Of a stretch of DNA of 31,233 nucleotides, positions 254 to 23,526 are shown in pieces. Made by a program: the position numbers and the translations under genes. The stretch is from a virus. A model generated the notes under the pieces. That model worked only from the letters and a program-made list of their open reading frames with translations, was not told the DNA's origin and did no database searches. The stretch spans positions 1 to 31,233 of the IMG/VR virus record IMGVR_UViG_3300009155_000163; one strand, written 5' to 3'. How positions within the stretch are numbered: position 1 is the first letter of the stretch; every line of letters begins with the position of its first letter.

Positions 254-597
254 ATACATACAGTCAGCTGCCAGGCGAGCTCAACGTCGTTGTGTCACAC
301 ATTGACGGCCTGGCTATTACGGGGGCTCTCGGGTTCTCAACCGCTGGCGACACGCTGACTGCTGTTATCTACGAAGACACTGCTGCCGGGTACGCAGCAG
401 CGATCGCGGCCACGCCAGCACCAGCGGCAACCTGGTCCATCTCTCGTGTAGATAATTCAATCGGTGCCATCACGCTCTCGCTGTCAGCGTCGACCATCAA
501 GGGTCTTTCGTTGGCCAAGAGTTATCGCTGGTTCTTGCGTTCGTCTGCCCTTGATCGTGCTGTGACAAGTGGCACGTTCACGCTGAGGGCTCCATGA
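250..597 (+). CDS. putative virion/baseplate-type beta protein
   Basis: 115 residues, coupled by ATGA at both ends. The sequence is beta-rich and low in charge, with an [16 protein letters not shown] opening that resembles the N-terminal beta domains (BppU-like or Ig-like) of phage fibre-associated proteins, where a modest fold is built around repeated strands ([19 protein letters not shown]). It lies directly before the collagen-like protein and could be its adaptor to the particle. No catalytic motif is visible and the family call is tentative. Confidence 0.55.
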
Positions 598-1565
598 GCG
601 ACATTCGCGTCAGCGTCACTGGCCCTGCCCCCTTCACCGTTCGCGTCACCGGTGCAACAGGGGTTTCGCCTGCGATCACAAACGGGCAGACCTTCAGCGT
701 GCAGCTGGCCGGCGTCGGGCCGACTGGGCCGTCTGGCCCGCGCGGTGCTAATGGTGCTCAAGGCGAAATCGGTGCCACTGGGGCTGTTGGTGCGGCGTCA
801 ACGGTCACCGGACCAACTGGGGCAGCTTCAAGCGTGCCAGGCCCCACTGGCGCCGCATCGATGGTGACCGGGCCAACAGGGGCCGCGTCAACAGTGCAGG
901 GACCGGTCGGCCCGACTGGTGCATCCGGCGCTGCGGGCAGCACCGGAGCAACCGGTCCGACAGGTCCAGCTGGATTAACCGGAGCAAGGGGAAGTGATGG
1001 CGTCGGCGCCACTGGATCCACTGGCGCGACAGGTGCTGCGGGTGTTGCTGGTTTGACCGGGCCGACGGGGGCAGTCGGCAGCCAAGGCGTCACCGGGGCA
1101 ACTGGCGCGCGTGGAAGCGATGGTGGCGTCGGAGCCGTGGGTGCAACCGGGGCGACTGGGGCTACTGGAAGCACCGGACCTCGAGGTAGCGATGGCGCCG
1201 CAGGGCCAACCGGCAGCCAGGGTAATGCTGGCGCTGCATCTACCATAACTGGGCCAACCGGTTCTGTTGGTGCCGCTTCCACGGTAACTGGGCCTACCGG
1301 CGCAACCGGAGCCCCATCAACGGCTGCCGGCCCAACCGGAGCCACGGGGGCGACAGGCGCTGCATCTGCCGTCGCTGGTCCGACTGGGGCCACTGGATCA
1401 AACGGCGTGGCGGGCGCCACCGGGGCCACTGGTGCTTCCGCTGCTGTGGCTTATCAAGCCACGGCCAATTTCCCAGCAACTGGAGTCACTGGTGTGCTCT
1501 ACATCGCATCGGACCCGTCGAAGATTTTTCAATTTGTAAACGGGTTCTACGTTCAGATTGGTTGA
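594..1565 (+). CDS. collagen-like virion fibre protein (Gly-X-Thr repeats)
   Basis: 323 residues with three parts. An N-terminal beta segment (about 1-40, with [11 protein letters not shown]) is followed by a long Gly-X-Y region (about 41-285) dominated by GPT, GAT and GST triplets, broken by a recurring non-collagen unit of the [10 protein letters not shown] type. A short C-terminal domain (about 286-323, ending [12 protein letters not shown]) probably nucleates trimer formation. Phage collagen-like proteins form trimeric rods on tail fibres or capsids. Thr in the third triplet position is abundant; in Bacillus BclA, Thr-rich GXT triplets are O-glycosylated. A glycosyltransferase and a methyltransferase lie 2-3 kb downstream. 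The antisense proline-rich ORF is only the complement of these repeats. Confidence 0.9.
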
Positions 1566-1627
1566 TCTACAAATGCTATTTGCATTGCTCGTGATGCGTG
1601 GCACAAACAATTCACGGAGTAAGAGAA

Positions 1628-2275
1628 ATGCCGTATTTTTCAATCCCGGCAACATTGAGTGGTAACGCCACGCAACTCCAAGGCCGCGCTGTTTCGGCGA
1701 CTGCCCCAGCTGCTAACCAGGTGCTCGCGTGGAGCGGTTCGGCGTGGCTTCCGGCCACCGGCGTGACAGGCCCAGCAGGCAGCGACGGCTCGCAGTTCTA
1801 CGGCGGATCTGGTGCCCCGTCCGCCGGGTTCGGGAACAGTCGCGACTTCTTTATCGACACAACCAACGGCCGGCTGTACGGGCCGAAGACCGACGGCTCG
1901 TGGGGATCTCCGTTGCAATTGCAGACCGGCGCCCAAGGGCCGTCTGGCGTCACTGGAGCAACTGGGCCGGCAGGACAGAGTTTCACAGGCCCATCTGGTG
2001 CTGCTGGCAACACGGGTCCAACCGGAGTCGGGGGGGCGACAATTGTCGCTGTTGGCGGCACGCCAAATGCCAATGTTGGCAGAAACGGCGACTTGGCGTT
2101 TGACATCACCGGTAAACAGTTCTTCGGACCGAAGGCAAATGACCTGTGGCCGGCAGCAGTGTCGATCGCAGGTCCGACCGGCCCGACAGGCTCGCTGACG
2201 ATTGCCGACGTGATTGCGGCCATTGGTAGCAACGCCACTCTCAGGGCCGCGATTAAGTCTGCGGCCGCATCGTGA
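1628..2275 (+). CDS. second collagen-like virion protein
   Basis: 215 residues from the ATG at 1628, which has a GGAG 8 bases upstream; an upstream in-frame start at 1598 lacks this. The N-terminus (MPYFSIPATLSGNATQLQ) precedes short Gly-X-Y segments (GVTGATGPAG, GAAGNTGPTG) alternating with two copies of a beta unit, DFFIDTTNGRLYGPK and DLAFDITGKQFFGPK. These D-x-T-G-x-x-x-GPK units are typical spacers in phage collagen-like fibre proteins. A helical C-terminus (TIADVIAAIGSNATLRAAI) could trimerise. It probably forms part of the same appendage as the preceding collagen-like protein. The 62-base gap before it holds no clear promoter. Confidence 0.8.
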   Translation: MPYFSIPATLSGNATQLQGRAVSATAPAANQVLAWSGSAWLPATGVTGPAGSDGSQFYGGSGAPSAGFGNSRDFFIDTTNGRLYGPKTDGSWGSPLQLQTGAQGPSGVTGATGPAGQSFTGPSGAAGNTGPTGVGGATIVAVGGTPNANVGRNGDLAFDITGKQFFGPKANDLWPAAVSIAGPTGPTGSLTIADVIAAIGSNATLRAAIKSAAAS

Positions 2276-2282
2276 GGCACGG

Positions 2283-3344
2283 ATGCTTGAGCACCTCCAC
2301 CAGTTGGCCGTTCACGCGTACTACGCTGGCGAGCTCGACGCCGGCCGCCGGGCGTGCGAGCGATTGCTAGGCATGGAACTGACTCCAGAGAAGGAGCGGC
2401 TCGTGCGACGAAACCGCAGCTGGTACACGCAGACGCTTGACGAGCTCGTCGCGTGCCGGTTTCAGCGATTTGACGTGGAGCCTGCGGCGGACGGATGGTC
2501 GAAGTTCAACCCCACTATCATCGCGCACGACGACGGCTATCTGGCGATTGTGAGGTCTAGCAACTACCAGATCGTTGATGGTCAGTACGTGATCCCACCG
2601 GCGGACGGCGACACGATCCGCACGATCAACGTGCTGGCCACGCTCGGCGCGGATCTAATCGTTTTATCGCAGTCTGCGATACCGGATCCGATCTACCCAA
2701 AATCCGGCTATCCCGTACATGGCTTTGAGGACTGTCGGCTCAATGCTGTTCATGGCGAGCTTGTTGTGAGTGCCACGGTCCGCAATTGGGCCGGGCGCGA
2801 CGGCACGTGCCGGATCGCAACGGCCACGCTGCTGCCATACATGGGCAGCATGATCGACGCCACGCTACTCGACGAGCCTGTCAGCGGGCGGCACGAAAAG
2901 AACTGGATGCCAATTGTCGGCACTGAGGTGTTTCTGTACTCGTGCTGGGAACAAGGCCGCACGGCATTTGCTTCACGCAACGGAAGTGCATGGAAGATCG
3001 ACCGCAGGGGCGAGTCGCCGGCGATTGCACGCGGCTGGCGTGGTGGCTCGCAGGTCGTGGAGGCTGGAGACGGCCGCTGGCTCGCCTTGGTGCACGAGGT
3101 GGCGGAATACACGGGCGGCCGCATCTACGAGCATCGGTTCGTGCTGTTTGGGGACAGTTGCGACATTCTCGGCTGGTCGCCGGCTTTCGCGTTTCGCGAA
3201 ACGCGAGCGATTGAGTTTGCCGCCGGGCTCGCCCGGCGTGGCGACCAACTCGTGGCAACCTTTGGCGTGCGTGACGCCGAAGCGTGGATGGCTGAAATGA
3301 GTCTGGCCGAAGTGCTGGCCATGATTGGAGGAAATGATGGGTGA
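2283..3344 (+). CDS. five-bladed beta-propeller, glycosidase-like protein
   Basis: 353 residues from ATG 2283, 7 bases after the previous stop. Residues 1-55 are helical and TPR-like (AYYAGELDAGRRACERLLG). The rest resembles the five-bladed propeller of GH43/GH62/GH130-type enzymes: FNPTII, then GFEDCRL (equivalent to the E-D-x-R signature of GH130), then EKNWMPI and FLYSCWEQGR. Members act on glycans by hydrolysis or phosphorolysis, but related propellers with helical prefixes also sit in bacterial glycan clusters beside GT2 enzymes, as here. Whether catalytic acids are intact cannot be decided by eye. With the next two genes it forms a three-gene glycan cassette. Confidence 0.6.
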   Translation: MLEHLHQLAVHAYYAGELDAGRRACERLLGMELTPEKERLVRRNRSWYTQTLDELVACRFQRFDVEPAADGWSKFNPTIIAHDDGYLAIVRSSNYQIVDGQYVIPPADGDTIRTINVLATLGADLIVLSQSAIPDPIYPKSGYPVHGFEDCRLNAVHGELVVSATVRNWAGRDGTCRIATATLLPYMGSMIDATLLDEPVSGRHEKNWMPIVGTEVFLYSCWEQGRTAFASRNGSAWKIDRRGESPAIARGWRGGSQVVEAGDGRWLALVHEVAEYTGGRIYEHRFVLFGDSCDILGWSPAFAFRETRAIEFAAGLARRGDQLVATFGVRDAEAWMAEMSLAEVLAMIGGNDG

Positions 3345-3891
3345 CGAGCTCGAGGACCAGGTCGGCGACCGTCTGCGGATGCACTGGATGCCGGGCGACT
3401 GGTTTCCGTGTTCGCCGGAGGCCGTGGGCCACTATGCCGCCAAGGCCCGGGTGTGCCGCGAACACAAGCCGTTGAGCGTGATTGAGATCGGCACCCGGTG
3501 CGGCTACTCGCTCGCATCGTTCCACGTCGTGGCGCCCGACGCGAAGTTCCTCTGCGTGGACGGTGCCCTCGACGCAGACAGTCCTGCGTGCCTGCAGCAC
3601 TGGCAGAGCGTAGTAGACTCGCTCGGCATCGACGCCCAGCTGATCGTCTGCAACAGCCACGACATGCAGCAGCTGCCACCGGCTGACTTCGCCCACGTGG
3701 ACGGCGACCACTCTTACCAAGGGGCACTGGCCGACCTGCGGTTGGTGGCCCACGTGCCGGTGATCCTGGCGGACGACTGCGATAACCAGGAGGTCGAGCG
3801 GGCCGTTGAGGAGTTCTGCCAAGAGACTGGCCGCGAACCGGTTTACTACCACGACGGGCTGCGAAAGGCCGCCGTGCTTGTGGAGGCTTGA
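3337..3891 (+). CDS. class I SAM-dependent methyltransferase
   Basis: 184 residues. The ATG at 3337 was preferred to the one at 3334 because GGAGGA at 3327-3332 is better spaced to it. The AdoMet-binding motif I is VIEIGTRCGYS (about 48-58), followed by an acidic strand end FLCVDG (71-76) and a motif HVDGDHSY (120-127) typical of Methyltransf_24-type enzymes, which often methylate sugars or small substrates. It overlaps the propeller gene by 8 bases and abuts the glycosyltransferase by TGATG. Likely role: methylation of a sugar added by the neighbouring transferase (inference). Confidence 0.85.
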   Translation: MGDELEDQVGDRLRMHWMPGDWFPCSPEAVGHYAAKARVCREHKPLSVIEIGTRCGYSLASFHVVAPDAKFLCVDGALDADSPACLQHWQSVVDSLGIDAQLIVCNSHDMQQLPPADFAHVDGDHSYQGALADLRLVAHVPVILADDCDNQEVERAVEEFCQETGREPVYYHDGLRKAAVLVEA

Positions 3892-4949
3892 TGATCGTCG
3901 GCATCTACGCTCTCGCGAAGAACGAGGCCGCTAACGTGCCGGCGTGGGAAGCGTCGTGCCGCGATGCCGACGTGCGGGTGGTCACCGACACGGGCTCGAC
4001 TGACGACACGGTGCAGCTGCTTGAGGACCAGGGCGTGGACGTGGCCCGCGGCAACGTCGTGCCGTGGAGGTGGGACGATAGTCACAACCTCTCCATGCAA
4101 CACTTGCCCAGCCACGTGGACGTGGCCATCCGGCTCGATCTCGACGAGGTGCTGGAGCCGGGCTGGCGGGAGGCCCTGGAGGCAGCATGGAAGCCGGAGA
4201 CGACCAAGCTTCGGTACTGGTATCAGTGGAGCGACGCCCTGCGGTTTAAGTCTGATCGCATTCACCTGAGGGCGGGCTACCGGTGGACCGGGGCTACCCA
4301 CGAGGGCCTCGTGCGGTGGCACGGCGAAGAGGTGCAGACGCACTGCGAGCAGACGCTCATCCGGCATCACCGGCAGCCCGGGAAGCAGCACAAGACAGAC
4401 CTGACGCTGCTGCAGCAGGCAGTCCGCGAGGCACCGCACGACGCCCGCATGAATTGGTATCTGGCCCGCGAGCTCGACTACCACGACCAGCCTGGGATCG
4501 TGGAAGCGTTTGAGCACTACCTTACGCTCCCCGGCGGGGCCGCGTGCGAGCGAGCATACGCCTACCGCGTGCTTGCCCGCCGGCAGCCGGAGAAGGCCGG
4601 CAACTGGCTCCTGCGGACGATTGAGGAGTCGCCACACGAGCCGGAGGGCTACCTTGCCCTCGGCGAGGCGTGCTGGGATGCCGGCGACGCCGTCGGTGCC
4701 CTGCACTGGGCGAGGCGTGCTGCGATGGCTCCCCATGACAGGCAGACGCACACAAGCGATCCAGTGGCCTACGGGCACCGAGCACCTGAGATGGCTGCCG
4801 CAGCGGCCTACAGCATCGGGCTTAAGCAGGAGGCGCTGACGCACGCCCGCGAGGCGTTCCGCCGCCACTCGTCGCAGGAGACGGCAGCGGCCGTCGCGAA
4901 GCTGGAGCTCGAGCTCACGACAAATATCCCCGGCCCGCAGGAGCGATAG
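3891..4949 (+). CDS. family 2 glycosyltransferase with TPR-like C-terminus
   Basis: 352 residues starting in a TGATG overlap. The GT-A nucleotide-binding signature is VTDTGSTDDT (31-40), and the metal-binding acidic motif is in RLDLDEVLEPGW (81-92, a D-x-D-E arrangement). A WTGATHEGLV stretch follows near residue 130. From about residue 165 to the end, helical pairs (DARMNWYLARELDYHD, GYLALGEACWDAGDAVGALH) look like tetratricopeptide repeats, as in SunS/O-GlcNAc-transferase-like enzymes that modify proteins. It is therefore a good candidate for a protein glycosyltransferase acting on a virion substrate; the collagen-like Thr repeats upstream are the obvious one. Confidence 0.88.
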   Translation: MIVGIYALAKNEAANVPAWEASCRDADVRVVTDTGSTDDTVQLLEDQGVDVARGNVVPWRWDDSHNLSMQHLPSHVDVAIRLDLDEVLEPGWREALEAAWKPETTKLRYWYQWSDALRFKSDRIHLRAGYRWTGATHEGLVRWHGEEVQTHCEQTLIRHHRQPGKQHKTDLTLLQQAVREAPHDARMNWYLARELDYHDQPGIVEAFEHYLTLPGGAACERAYAYRVLARRQPEKAGNWLLRTIEESPHEPEGYLALGEACWDAGDAVGALHWARRAAMAPHDRQTHTSDPVAYGHRAPEMAAAAAYSIGLKQEALTHAREAFRRHSSQETAAAVAKLELELTTNIPGPQER

Positions 4950-4950
4950 C

Positions 4951-5457
4951 ATGCCAGTCACGCCGCACCTCTCACGCAACCTCGCCACGCGTCTGGCGGC
5001 CGCCCTTTCGGCATTTAGTTGGGGCAGCGTGCCGGGCGGCACGATCGCGGCCACCATGCAACGCAAACCCGACTACGGGCTTGAGGATCTCGGATCCCTG
5101 CGCGTGTCAGTGGTGCCCGGACCTTATGCGATGAAGACAGAGACAAAGGGGATGGAGCTCGCCGACACGACCGTCGGGATTGTCGTTGCCAAGCACGTCG
5201 GCAGCGAGGCAGACATCGTCGCCTTGGAGGATCTCTGCCAAGAGATCGTGGATGCGATTCGGTCGGACTACATCAAGCCCAGCGGGCTGCCAGAAGACAA
5301 CGACTGGACAGAGGTCAGCAACCCACTGCCATACGATCCTGAGCTCCTCGAGGCCAGGAATGTGTTCATGGCGCAGATCGCTGTGCAGTGGGATATCCCG
5401 GTGGATAAGTGGGCGCCTGCGGCGCCGACAGGCGCTACGGGAGCCACCGGCCCATGA
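4951..5457 (+). CDS. putative tail terminator/tail completion protein with collagen-like tail
   Basis: 168 residues, one base after the glycosyltransferase stop. The fold looks alpha/beta with an early helix (NLATRLAAALSAF), a strand-rich middle (SLRVSVVPGP, TVGIVVAKHV) and a regulated-length helix (ALEDLCQEIVDAIRSDY). This fits tail terminator/tail completion proteins, which are usually encoded between head-tail joining and tail-tube genes. The last ten residues, [10 protein letters not shown], are pure collagen-like triplets appended to an otherwise globular protein. Function is inferred from size and position. Confidence 0.55.
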   Translation: MPVTPHLSRNLATRLAAALSAFSWGSVPGGTIAATMQRKPDYGLEDLGSLRVSVVPGPYAMKTETKGMELADTTVGIVVAKHVGSEADIVALEDLCQEIVDAIRSDYIKPSGLPEDNDWTEVSNPLPYDPELLEARNVFMAQIAVQWDIPVDKWAPAAPTGATGATGP

Positions 5458-11555: not shown

Positions 11556-12212
11556 ATGGACCCGCGACAGAGCGTCAATCCGGGCGATCCGATCCGTTTG
11601 GCCGCAAGCCAGATCAACGGACTCAATCGCCTGTTGAATCTGGACGCAGGATTTCGATCGCCGGCCGCATCCGAGCAACCAACGCCCTACACGTGGGTGA
11701 TGGCGAAAAACAACACCGGGTCGTTGGTTGCACGCTGGGGCGTGCTCGCAATCACGGGCATGGAAATCGTCCCGGGAAGCAGCGACAACGCCACCAGCCA
11801 ATTTGAGCAGTTGCCGGTTGTCGCTGGCGGCACGCCAAGCGACACGACGACGGCCTGGTGCGTGGCGGTCGAGCCGATCGCGGCAGGGATGATAGGCAGG
11901 GTGGCAGTTGGTGGCGTGGTGCAGGTGAAGATAGAGGTCGCCAATTCCTTGCACGTGTTTGCGAAGTGCAAGTCATCGACTTCTGAGCTAAAAAGCACGG
12001 ACAACGGAGAGGGCGTGATCCTGTGGAAGGCCGGCACCGGATCTGGCCAGTGGGCACTGGTGCGTCTTGGCAACGGCCGAGGCACGCAAATTGACGTGGT
12101 GACGAACGTCACGCTGGACGCTAACGGCATCGCGGTCGAGAAGAAGCGTGCGTGGGTGTACGGACCCACCGGAATCACGGGATCGACCATCGGCACGACA
12201 GGGTGCACCTAA
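11556..12212 (+). CDS. tail-associated structural protein with collagen-like C-terminus
   Basis: 218 residues. The N-terminus begins with a short adaptor (MDPRQSVNPGDPIRLAASQ) and the body is beta-rich with alternating small residues (GRVAVGGVVQVKIEVA, WALVRLGNGRG), a pattern of virion structural proteins. The last 17 residues (YGPTGITGSTIGTTGCT) are Gly-X-Thr triplets, like the tail on the 4951 gene product. The stop overlaps the following start (TAATG). Role in the tail tip or fibre base is inferred from gene order. Confidence 0.6.
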   Translation: MDPRQSVNPGDPIRLAASQINGLNRLLNLDAGFRSPAASEQPTPYTWVMAKNNTGSLVARWGVLAITGMEIVPGSSDNATSQFEQLPVVAGGTPSDTTTAWCVAVEPIAAGMIGRVAVGGVVQVKIEVANSLHVFAKCKSSTSELKSTDNGEGVILWKAGTGSGQWALVRLGNGRGTQIDVVTNVTLDANGIAVEKKRAWVYGPTGITGSTIGTTGCT

Positions 12213-17406: not shown

Positions 17407-17648
17407 AGTTCAGCGACTTGCTGTGGGAAGTCATCGACAACGGCCTCTACGTGTTGCACCTGGTCGCGGCACTGTTTATCGCCGTGTCGGCCGTGGCCTG
17501 CCCAATCTGGCTCGGCATGATTCACCGCGAGCTTGTGACGATCCGCGATGAGATTAGGGCTATTGAGATCAAGCCAGAAGATGGCCCCGGGCCTGTGCTG
17601 CCGCGGGTGCTACCGCGCCTGCGGCGAATCGGCGAGGAGGCTGAATGA
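17403..17648 (+). CDS. small single-TM protein with charged tail
   Basis: 81 residues, coupled by ATGA to both neighbours. Residues about 12-38 are hydrophobic (NGLYVLHLVAALFIAVSAVA), then a basic/acidic amphipathic helix (HRELVTIRDEIRAIEIK) and a Pro/Arg tail (PRVLPRLRRIGEEAE). The topology, one helix with a charged cytoplasmic tail, fits an antiholin or holin-like product, but several phage proteins look the same. Function unknown. Confidence 0.5.
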   Translation: MKFSDLLWEVIDNGLYVLHLVAALFIAVSAVACPIWLGMIHRELVTIRDEIRAIEIKPEDGPGPVLPRVLPRLRRIGEEAE

Positions 17649-18712
17649 CCCGCATCGTTCGCGCATGGACCTGGTCGGCAATCGCGTTCGTCATTGTCGC
17701 CGCACTGATCGGTGCTGTTGTAGATCATTACGCTCACCGGCTCTTGCGGCGAGTCGACTCATCGTTTGGCTACACGCCCAACCCGGAGGGCGTTCGCGAA
17801 TTCCTCCGCGAGCTCCAAGAGCCGACGTTCGCAGAGGCCGGGGCGGACGCGATGAAGAACGCTACAGGGCGCGACACATTCCTCTATCGTGCGGTCAACG
17901 TGTCGCACCAGCGACGCTACGGGAAGCCGTGGCGGTCGTGGGACCAAGGGGCAGCGGGCACGTGCGTGAGCATGGCTTTTGGTTTGGGAGAATACGCAGC
18001 GGAAGCAGTCGACCACGTTGCAGGAAAGACGAAACAGCCGCCGCTTGTTTGCGCGAGCGAGCCAATTTATGGAGGTTCCAGAACCGCGGCGAGATTGCCC
18101 CCGATGGAGCGAAATCTCGGAGGGGATGGAAGCTACGGCGGTGCCGCTGCCCGCTGGCTCACCGGCAACTGCCAAGACAAGACAGTCGGCGGCGTGCTGT
18201 ACCGCACGAAGTACGGGCCGTTCGATCTGAGCACGTATTCAATCCCGCTCTCAAAGACGTGGGGCCGCGATGGTGTTCCGCTTGAGCTCGGCCGCCAGGC
18301 TGCGACGCGTCGAGCGAAGTGCGTGCAAGTGCAGACGTGGCAGGAGCTCTGTGCGGCCATTGAGCGGGGCACGCCTGTGGCCATCTGCTCGCAGGTGGGC
18401 TACGGTCCGACGCCGCGAGTGCGTGACGCTGACGGCGCTCTTTCCAGGGGCTCGTCCTGGTCGCATGCGATGTTGATATGGGGCGTGCGGCACAAGCACA
18501 ACGGATCGCCCGACGACATGGGGCTAATCCAAAACAGCTGGAATACGAACTGGTGCTCCGGTCCAAAGTGGCCGGACGATCAACCGGATGGCAGCTTCTG
18601 GGCTCGCCGGCGTGACGTCGAAGCGGCCCTGCAGCAGGGCGACTCGTGGGCCATCGGCACCAGCTACGAATGGCGGGATCTGCAAAACGCTGACTGGGGG
18701 CTCTCGCTATGA
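17645..18712 (+). CDS. membrane-anchored papain-like (C1) cysteine peptidase
   Basis: 355 residues, ATGA start. Residues 8-27 (WTWSAIAFVIVAALIGAVV) are a signal anchor. A papain-fold domain follows: oxyanion Gln101 and catalytic Cys107 in DQGAAGTCVSMAFG, catalytic His274 in SWSHAMLIWG, and Asn297 in LIQNSWNTNW, all in the papain order. Trp fragments (RSWDQ, NSWNTNW) are also typical. The triad is complete, so it should be an active peptidase or transpeptidase-like enzyme facing outward. In this lysis-type operon it would be an unusual endolysin candidate, acting on protein or peptidoglycan cross-links; alternatively it processes virion proteins. Confidence 0.85.
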   Translation: MTRIVRAWTWSAIAFVIVAALIGAVVDHYAHRLLRRVDSSFGYTPNPEGVREFLRELQEPTFAEAGADAMKNATGRDTFLYRAVNVSHQRRYGKPWRSWDQGAAGTCVSMAFGLGEYAAEAVDHVAGKTKQPPLVCASEPIYGGSRTAARLPPMERNLGGDGSYGGAAARWLTGNCQDKTVGGVLYRTKYGPFDLSTYSIPLSKTWGRDGVPLELGRQAATRRAKCVQVQTWQELCAAIERGTPVAICSQVGYGPTPRVRDADGALSRGSSWSHAMLIWGVRHKHNGSPDDMGLIQNSWNTNWCSGPKWPDDQPDGSFWARRRDVEAALQQGDSWAIGTSYEWRDLQNADWGLSL

Positions 18713-20106: not shown

Positions 20107-21063
20107 TCACGCCGCCGGCCGCTCCGGCGGCTCTTCGCCGAGGTCGAGCGGAGGCAGCAGGTCCGGTGCCGACGGCCCGTCTCTCACGATGTTCGGATCG
20201 AAATAGCTTTTGCGAGTTGTGCTCGGCCGGTCGTGATCAGCGAGACGCGTGGCATCACCACCAGCGGCATGGAAGTAACTCAGGCTCGCCTTTCTGAATC
20301 CGTGGAAGCCACGATACGTGACGCCGGCACGCCTGCAGAGAACCTTGAGCGACCCCCATATCGACGTGGGCTTCCGGTCCCACGGCCAGACGAGATCCTC
20401 GGGCCGGCGGCGACCGGCGGCCAGCATGTCGGCCGCTTGGCGATTGATGCCGCGAACGATATCCCTTGTCTTACCCTTGCGAGTCGCACCGAGGAACGTG
20501 ATCTCGCCAGCCTCAATGTCGATCTGTTCCCAGCGCAGGGCAAGCATGGCCCCCAGCCTTTCGGCCGTGAGCCACGACACGTAGATTTGTGTCGACCACC
20601 ACCAAGCATTCGGCACGCCGGCGATCGCACCCTTGTATGAATCGCTCCGTGTTCTGGCGAGTCTGATCAGCTTCGCGACGTCTTCTGACGAATACGCTCG
20701 AGGCACTCGCTCCGTGGCACGGTACGGAGGAAGCGACGGCCACTCGACGTGCTCGCCTCTGCTGTTACGCATTTTCTTCTTACTTGCGTAGGTCCAGATA
20801 GCGACCAGCTGCGTGCGATCCTTCAACACGCTGTTGCGAGAACAAATCTTTCCACGGTGCGGCGTGATCTCGCGATACCGCAAAAACCTGCTCACGACCA
20901 GGTCGTCGAGATCGTCAAGCGTGGGCTCAGGATCAACTCGGCCTGGCACCGTCGCGAGGTAATCGCGGAAGCGGTCGAGCGTGTAGGTGTACAGACCGAC
21001 GGTGCGGTCTGAGAGCATGTGCAGGGGTGCGTATCGTTCGAGCAGGAGAGAGCGGACAAGCAT
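20107..21063 (-). CDS. int: tyrosine recombinase (phage integrase)
   Basis: 318 residues, ATG 21063 with AAGGA upstream on the minus strand. N-terminal residues 1-120 form a SAM-like core-binding domain (LLERYAPLHMLSDRTVGLY). The catalytic domain has Arg169 (TAERLGAMLALRWEQID), Lys near 196-198 (ATRKGKTR), His254-x-x-Arg257 (HGFRKASLSYF), His277 (LADHDRPSTTRKSYF) and nucleophile Tyr287 in KSYFDP. All five catalytic positions are present, so it should be active in site-specific integration/excision. Placed leftward against both flanking blocks, as expected for a lysogeny gene. No tRNA gene or clear attachment core was found beside it. Confidence 0.93.
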   Translation of the reverse strand: MLVRSLLLERYAPLHMLSDRTVGLYTYTLDRFRDYLATVPGRVDPEPTLDDLDDLVVSRFLRYREITPHRGKICSRNSVLKDRTQLVAIWTYASKKKMRNSRGEHVEWPSLPPYRATERVPRAYSSEDVAKLIRLARTRSDSYKGAIAGVPNAWWWSTQIYVSWLTAERLGAMLALRWEQIDIEAGEITFLGATRKGKTRDIVRGINRQAADMLAAGRRRPEDLVWPWDRKPTSIWGSLKVLCRRAGVTYRGFHGFRKASLSYFHAAGGDATRLADHDRPSTTRKSYFDPNIVRDGPSAPDLLPPLDLGEEPPERPAA

Positions 21064-23039: not shown

Positions 23040-23311
23040 TACGCGGTGCCAGCGGTGCCGCCCTGCTCTGTGCCGATCGGCTCTCAAGGTGCACGTACCT
23101 CAGCGGCGACGGTACGGCCGACGAGGCCGACGACCTGGACCTCGACGAGCGTATCGCCCGTGGCGATCGCATGGTGGCCTATGACGTCATCGGTGCGTGC
23201 ATCAGTGATCTCACCGCGTGGCGTGACGGGCTCGGCGAGGTGCTCGCCGGTGCCGACACGCTCGCACGTATCGCCGCGCTCGCGGCCAAGAAGGAGCGAC
23301 GCGGATGCTGA
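23036..23311 (+). CDS. small early protein with CTG start
   Basis: 91 residues if translation begins at the CTG at 23036, in a CTGA overlap with the previous stop and 5 bases after GGAG (23027-23030). No ATG or GTG precedes the coding-looking part in this frame; the only ATG (23171) would remove half of it. The sequence is acidic and helical (ADEADDLDLDERIARGDRMV, LGEVLAGADTLARIAALAA). It overlaps csrA by 7 bases. Unusual start, so the boundary is uncertain. Function unknown. Confidence 0.5.
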   Translation: MIRGASGAALLCADRLSRCTYLSGDGTADEADDLDLDERIARGDRMVAYDVIGACISDLTAWRDGLGEVLAGADTLARIAALAAKKERRGC

Positions 23312-23526
23312 TTCTGTCTCGGAAGGTTGATGAATCGATTGTGTTTGAAGGACTCGACATTGAGGTGATGGTCACCTCAATCGAGAGAGGACGCGTGAAG
23401 CTCGGCGTGAAAGCCCCGGAGGGCGTGACTGTGCTGAGACACGAGTTGCTCGAGCGGATGGATCCGTGGGTTATTCAGAAGAAACCAGAAGGAGTTGAAA
23501 GCAATGGCGACGAATTTCATGCCTGA
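23305..23526 (+). CDS. csrA: phage-encoded CsrA/RsmA RNA-binding regulator
   Basis: 73 residues, close to the usual 60-70. The CsrA core is complete: MLILSRKVDESIVF, then IEVMVTSIERGRVKLGVKAP and GVTVLRHELLERM. Arg6 and Arg45 (equivalent to Arg44 of Escherichia coli CsrA) are the RNA-contacting residues. CsrA dimers bind GGA motifs in mRNA leaders and block or activate translation. In this operon, between two unknown genes and the recombination genes, it could shift host metabolism or control phage messages. The tail (DPWVIQKKPEGVESNGDEF) is longer than usual. Confidence 0.93.
   Translation: MLILSRKVDESIVFEGLDIEVMVTSIERGRVKLGVKAPEGVTVLRHELLERMDPWVIQKKPEGVESNGDEFHA

Follow-up and report, generated by a model that had tools for sequence, protein, structure and literature searches.

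Several described systems bear on the locus reported here. In Clostridioides difficile, SgtA, a 358-residue protein with a GT-A domain and four tetratricopeptide repeats (TPR), is encoded next to bclA3 and in vitro transfers beta-O-GlcNAc onto Thr of GPT collagen peptides from BclA3 (PMC7157674). The glycan of BclA, the collagen of the Bacillus exosporium, ends in an O-methyl sugar (PMC6222408); a mimivirus glucosyltransferase modifies the virus's own collagen, at hydroxylysine (PMC9546862); and mycobacteriophages encode glycosyltransferases that modify capsid and tail proteins, at their C-termini (Freeman et al. 2023, as cited in PMC12619734). Phage virion glycosylation, glycosylation of Thr in Gly-X-Thr (GXT) collagen by a TPR-containing glycosyltransferase, and the modification by a virus of its own collagen are each already known, separately. 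In the window, that is, the whole 31,233-nucleotide stretch analysed here (IMG/VR virus record IMGVR_UViG_3300009155_000163, positions 1 to 31,233), two genes for collagen-like proteins are followed by a cassette of three enzyme genes, which encode a propeller protein, a methyltransferase and a GT2 glycosyltransferase with a TPR tail (Table 1). We consider it likely that this cassette O-glycosylates and methylates Thr of GXT sequons across the proteins of the virion, and not on collagen alone.

The locus resembles that of SgtA in that its glycosyltransferase combines a GT-A domain with C-terminal TPRs in about 350 residues and is encoded near a GXT collagen. However, BclA3 is a spore protein and the reported SgtA/BclA3 unit has neither a propeller nor a methyltransferase, whereas the cassette is phage-borne and comes with short tags also in proteins of the capsid and tail. 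With BclA the locus would share a glycosylated collagen and a methylated sugar, although BclA is a cellular protein. As in mimivirus, a virus would act on its own collagen, but at Thr rather than at hydroxylysine; the mimivirus L230 type includes a lysyl hydroxylase, and no such domain was found in the ten window proteins scanned. As in the mycobacteriophages, the glycosyltransferase is encoded in or near the structural genes, here between fibre and tail genes in the loci read; the text citing the mycobacteriophage work describes no GXT sequon, collagen, GH130-type propeller or methyltransferase. The literature searched for rhizobial or phage collagen glycosylation yielded nothing direct, nor did it contain a phage cassette comprising a GH130-type propeller and a methyltransferase, with collagen-type tags marking its proposed substrates in capsid, tail and fibres. 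A preliminary description of the locus had called the system undescribed, which holds for phages within this literature, but SgtA/BclA3 and the mimivirus collagen are close precedents.

All five open reading frames of that description were confirmed, as was its claim of a coupled operon: the two collagen genes and those of the three enzymes overlap or nearly abut. The start at 594 lies within the upstream stop, the start at 2283 follows a stop by 7 bases, and the starts at 3334 and 3891 overlap the stops of the preceding genes. Because the order propeller-methyltransferase-glycosyltransferase is repeated in dozens of viral contigs, the arrangement is not due to chance.

The AlphaFold model of the glycosyltransferase (mean predicted local distance difference test score, pLDDT, 90.5) shows a GT-A fold followed by a TPR-like helical tail, in which the helical repeats at residues 171-344 are modelled with high confidence; TPR matches in the sequence itself are weak. 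Its acidic metal-binding motif, L82-D83-x-D85-E86, is invariant in 34 sequences. The best matches among solved folds, and the closest to the whole protein, were the ThuS/SunS glycosyltransferases (7msk, 7msn; E 3e-14), which likewise have a peptide acceptor, although sequence identity is 12-15%. SunS and ThuS are S-glycosyltransferases that act on Cys of a bacteriocin. The modelled fold, together with the TPR tail, thus supports the earlier proposal that the substrate is a protein.

The propeller model (pLDDT 92.6) is five-bladed, with an additional N-terminal helical part, and matches GH130 beta-mannoside phosphorylases and GT108 mannosyltransferases (4udg, 5b0p, 6q4z). Within its G-x-E-D-x-R motif, G147, E149, D150 and R152 are invariant in 40 relatives, and the catalytic-type Asp150 falls opposite the Asp of the G-x-E-D motif in Lin0857, the overall sequence match being weak (E 1.7). 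Pfam and NCBIfam searches assigned the propeller itself to no family, and a search of its profile against PDB sequences gave one sub-threshold match only; the assignment comes from fold comparison. A relative from Ignavibacteria reaches Pfam Glyco_hydro_130 (1.4e-7). The protein shares with GH130 and GT108 enzymes the five blades and the G-x-E-D motif with its Asp, but differs in the added helices, in a very low identity and in having bacterial relatives fused to GT2 domains. The preliminary description had spoken of a 'propeller glycosidase-like protein'; as modelled, the enzyme is more likely a transferase or phosphorylase of GH130/GT108 type than a glycosidase. The methyltransferase is a class I enzyme (Methyltransf_24, 4.9e-8) with a weak match to a rhamnosyl O-methyltransferase (E 0.0035).

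A scan of IMG/VR with the propeller and the glycosyltransferase gave 121 loci, some from the same contigs. Wherever it can be read, the cassette occupies a constant place: head and fibre genes, propeller, methyltransferase, glycosyltransferase, tail genes. The methyltransferase is rarely missing, and other sugar-type enzymes then take its place, in agreement with the methylation step proposed earlier; in the L022 and L115 lineages it is swapped for a second GT2 or another methyltransferase. In L022 (3631-5083) a protein of unknown family plus a GT2 takes its place and in L115 (8482-10004) a different methyltransferase, so that finishing enzymes are exchanged while propeller and glycosyltransferase are constant. 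Glycosyltransferase relatives in jumbo Pseudomonas phages (L326, L331 and L332) lie near head protease genes.

The glycosyltransferase also matches PHROG_13126 (3.5e-61), labelled 'moron, beta-1,4-glycosyltransferase', and GT2 enzymes and methyltransferases are frequent in polysaccharide pathways. If the target were a surface polysaccharide of the host, modified for receptor masking or superinfection exclusion, the neighbourhood of virion genes would be incidental. Against this, no lipopolysaccharide-type, flippase or lipid-carrier genes were recognised beside the cassette in the neighbourhoods read; constant proximity to lipopolysaccharide-type genes, which the preliminary description had named as a refuting pattern, was looked for and not found. 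In addition, the cassette is fixed within the late structural operon, the fold is SunS-like with TPRs, and the association with GXT would be left unexplained. We regard a polysaccharide target as highly improbable.

Of the two collagen-like proteins of the window, the larger (Pfam E 4e-22) has Thr in Y of 45% of the G-X-Y triplets that stand in runs of at least three, the longest run being 26; the second has 19 triplets, all in short runs, and its homologue lies directly 5' of the propeller across the window's clade, wherever the contig extends that far. We rejected the Thr-richness of the window collagen as evidence, because 45% is ordinary for bacterial collagens, in which Thr occupies Y in 31.6% of cases over all bacteria and 48.3% in Gram-positives (PMC8968730). 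A comparison of Y-Thr between collagens of cassette-positive and cassette-negative phages gave weak support (Mann-Whitney p 0.002, with only 4 negatives).

Here, cassette-negative means that the cassette was not seen on the contig; such relatives were obtained by scans with downstream tail genes. Among contigs with at least 4 kb upstream, collagen is present in 27/54 cassette-positive and 4/17 cassette-negative ones. Throughout the window's clade the collagens adjoin the cassette on every contig that extends far enough, and a large sister group is without collagen. In the 27 cassette-positive contigs that lack collagen, the motif TGxTG was observed 71 times, compared with 5.8 expected from shuffled proteins, whereas cassette-negative phages showed no excess (4 against 3.5). 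When ten xGnxG motifs were compared in the collagen-less cassette phages, only TGnTG was strongly enriched; SGnSG, AGnAG, VGnVG and the other motifs tested were at or within about twofold of expectation.

The TGxTG motifs are concentrated in a few virion proteins, namely the capsid cement protein (Pfam Phage_cement_2), the product of a gene that follows the tape measure, and a 112-residue neighbour. Truncated contigs whose sequence begins within the tail module, L302 among them, were left out of the comparison of cement proteins. The cement protein carries TGxTG in 34/36 cassette-positive phages and in 0/18 cassette-negative ones; the motif occupies one or the other of two loops, with at least six changes of position. 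In L031, a member of the window's clade whose glycosyltransferase is 95% identical, the cement protein has the loop tag AVTGVTGVQAGY. The C-terminal tag of the protein encoded just downstream of the glycosyltransferase (4951-5457) is kept throughout this clade, with X being Ala or Pro, and its cassette-less relatives have Pro/Ala-rich C-terminal ends instead.

These distributions bear on the original proposal, in which the cassette was dedicated to glycosylating and methylating the adjacently encoded collagen fibres. The clade of the window, with two collagens directly upstream, fits such a restriction, as does the presence of Thr-rich collagen beside the enzymes in bacteria and in two other phages. 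However, half of the 54 cassette contigs are without collagen, 17 of these have at least 8 kb upstream of g5409, and most carry GXT tags in cement and tail proteins; the cement tag tracks the cassette even where collagen is missing. A cassette acting on the fibres only is unlikely, and that part of the proposal was not upheld. GXT as the acceptor was supported, and so was the link with Thr-rich collagen, which recurs in other phages and in bacteria.

Two phages, one actinobacterial and the other a cyanophage, combine such enzymes with Thr-rich collagen, and so do rhizobia, Ignavibacteria and actinobacteria. In the Actinomycetia phage DSL-LC01 a relative of the glycosyltransferase shares an operon with two collagens, with 62-66% Thr in Y, and in the cyanophage DSL-LC02 the propeller and two FkbM methyltransferases lie beside a collagen-like gene. 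A tryptophan halogenase gene overlaps the glycosyltransferase gene of DSL-LC01, beside the collagens (L325, 7433-9004). When GTDB genomes were scanned with the propeller profile, 51 loci were obtained from rhizobia, actinobacteria, Ignavibacteria and others. The rhizobial propellers are fused to an N-terminal GT2 with TPRs. One Mesorhizobium polypeptide joins GT2, TPR and propeller to a DXD sugar transferase and also matches Methyltransf_24 weakly, and the next gene encodes a GT2 (35% identical to that of the window), an FkbM methyltransferase and TPRs, with a second propeller-like region seen by eye. Both fusions adjoin giant DUF4347-collagens, in which Thr mostly makes up 90-99% of Y and runs reach 672 triplets.

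The propeller was present in 18/81 Mesorhizobium genomes, and at least five collagen matches were found in 16/18 propeller-positive and 12/63 negative genomes (Fisher 9e-8). In all 14 cases on one contig, propeller and collagen were 3.3-6.1 kb apart. Propeller-less loci with Thr-rich collagen had a different GT2-TPR protein at that place, in 6/6 flanks read, and three Thr-poor collagens had no GT2-TPR neighbour. Thr-rich giant DUF4347-collagens adjoin a GT2-TPR protein in the Mesorhizobium loci L175, L176, L177, L178, L181 and L329, which probably represent a distinct bacterial locus for the glycosylation of collagen. In L177 this protein, checked with Pfam, is fused to Anp1 and Glyco_transf_25 (GT25) domains. 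GT25 is the family of the animal collagen galactosyltransferases.

Several observations weigh against glycosylation across the virion. The cement tag is missing in two cassette-bearing phages (L076 and L354), and the window itself starts past the cement gene, leaving its own cement protein unreadable. Some cellular propeller loci, mainly actinobacterial, have no collagen within 10 kb, and no annotated collagen lies near the distant relatives of the glycosyltransferase that the jumbo Pseudomonas phages PaBG, Lu11 and HRDY3 encode. Moreover, related phages are not independent: depending on which set is used, the g5409 tree requires a minimum of 3-5 switches between presence and absence of the cassette, and it offers only 2-3 independent contrasts, all in the expected direction and too few for significance; two extra scans for cassette-less relatives gave few additional contrasts. 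With so few contrasts, GXT tags and cassette might be mere markers of one phage lineage without a functional link. This we consider very unlikely, since the tags occur in two cement loops with their repeated changes of position, at C-termini and in distal tail proteins, strong enrichment is limited to Thr-Gly motifs, and Thr-rich collagen co-occurs with the enzymes in unrelated bacteria as well as in phages whose genomes are different.

Folds, catalytic motifs, the operon, the bacterial fusions beside Thr-rich collagen and the association of motif and cassette were established by computation; what the enzymes do chemically, in which order, with which sugars and to what end is inferred, as follows. 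In the host cytoplasm, the GT2-TPR protein would put the first sugar on GXT Thr of virion proteins before their assembly. The propeller would then add or trim a further sugar, perhaps a beta-mannoside, and the methyltransferase would cap the glycan by O-methylation. Candidate substrates are the collagen fibres, which are the densest, the tags of the cement protein, the protein just downstream of the glycosyltransferase and a distal tail protein. The glycan may serve surface shielding, adhesion or the stability of the fibre or triple helix.

Table 1. Coordinates of the cassette, its putative substrates and an adjacent gene in the window
Feature	Coordinates	Strand	Characteristics
Small conserved protein, 115 residues	250..597	+	precedes the large collagen directly within the window's clade; from synteny, a probable partner of the fibre
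Collagen-like fibre protein, 323 residues	594..1565	+	64 G-X-Y triplets, 29 with Thr in Y; 20 TGxTG
Second collagen-like protein, 215 residues	1628..2275	+	short GXT runs, 4 TGxTG motifs
Five-bladed propeller enzyme with N-terminal helices	2283..3344	+	GH130/GT108 type; G-x-E-D-x-R, Asp150
Class I S-adenosylmethionine-dependent methyltransferase	3334..3891	+	probable sugar O-methyltransferase
GT2 (GT-A) glycosyltransferase with C-terminal TPR	3891..4949	+	SunS/ThuS/SgtA-like; probable initiating Thr glycosyltransferase
C-terminal GXT tag of protein 4951-5457	5425..5454	+	
C-terminal GXT tag GPTGITGSTIGTTGCT of protein 11556-12212	12162..12209	+	gene two after the tape measure

Elsewhere in the window, a gene at 20107-21063 (-) resembles, by eye, a tyrosine-recombinase-like integrase, and a temperate phage is possible, yet the GTDB genome matches of the propeller-profile scan included no close prophage. 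By eye, 23305-23526 (+) is CsrA-like (carbon storage regulator), an unusual phage cargo, and 17645-18712 (+) has a papain-like cysteine protease pattern (QGAAGTC, SHAML, NSWNTNW), possibly with a role in lysis or in the virion. No tRNA genes were found in the window.

We lean towards a broader view, in which GXT is a portable glycosylation sequon of bacteria and phages. Phages would have grafted short GXT tags onto the cement protein, tail proteins and fibres, and the cassette, which is related to the enzymes with which soil bacteria probably modify their giant Thr-rich collagens, would cover the entire virion with an O-methylated glycan. Phage virion glycosylation has so far been shown in few groups, and the GXT tag together with the cassette would provide a sequence rule that predicts which phages are glycosylated, many freshwater phages among them, and at which residues. 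The Thr-rich bacterial collagens, including the very long ones of Mesorhizobium, are likewise suggested to be glycoproteins of a recognisable enzyme set, and the cassette would provide a compact enzyme set with which collagen-like or tagged proteins could be glycosylated.
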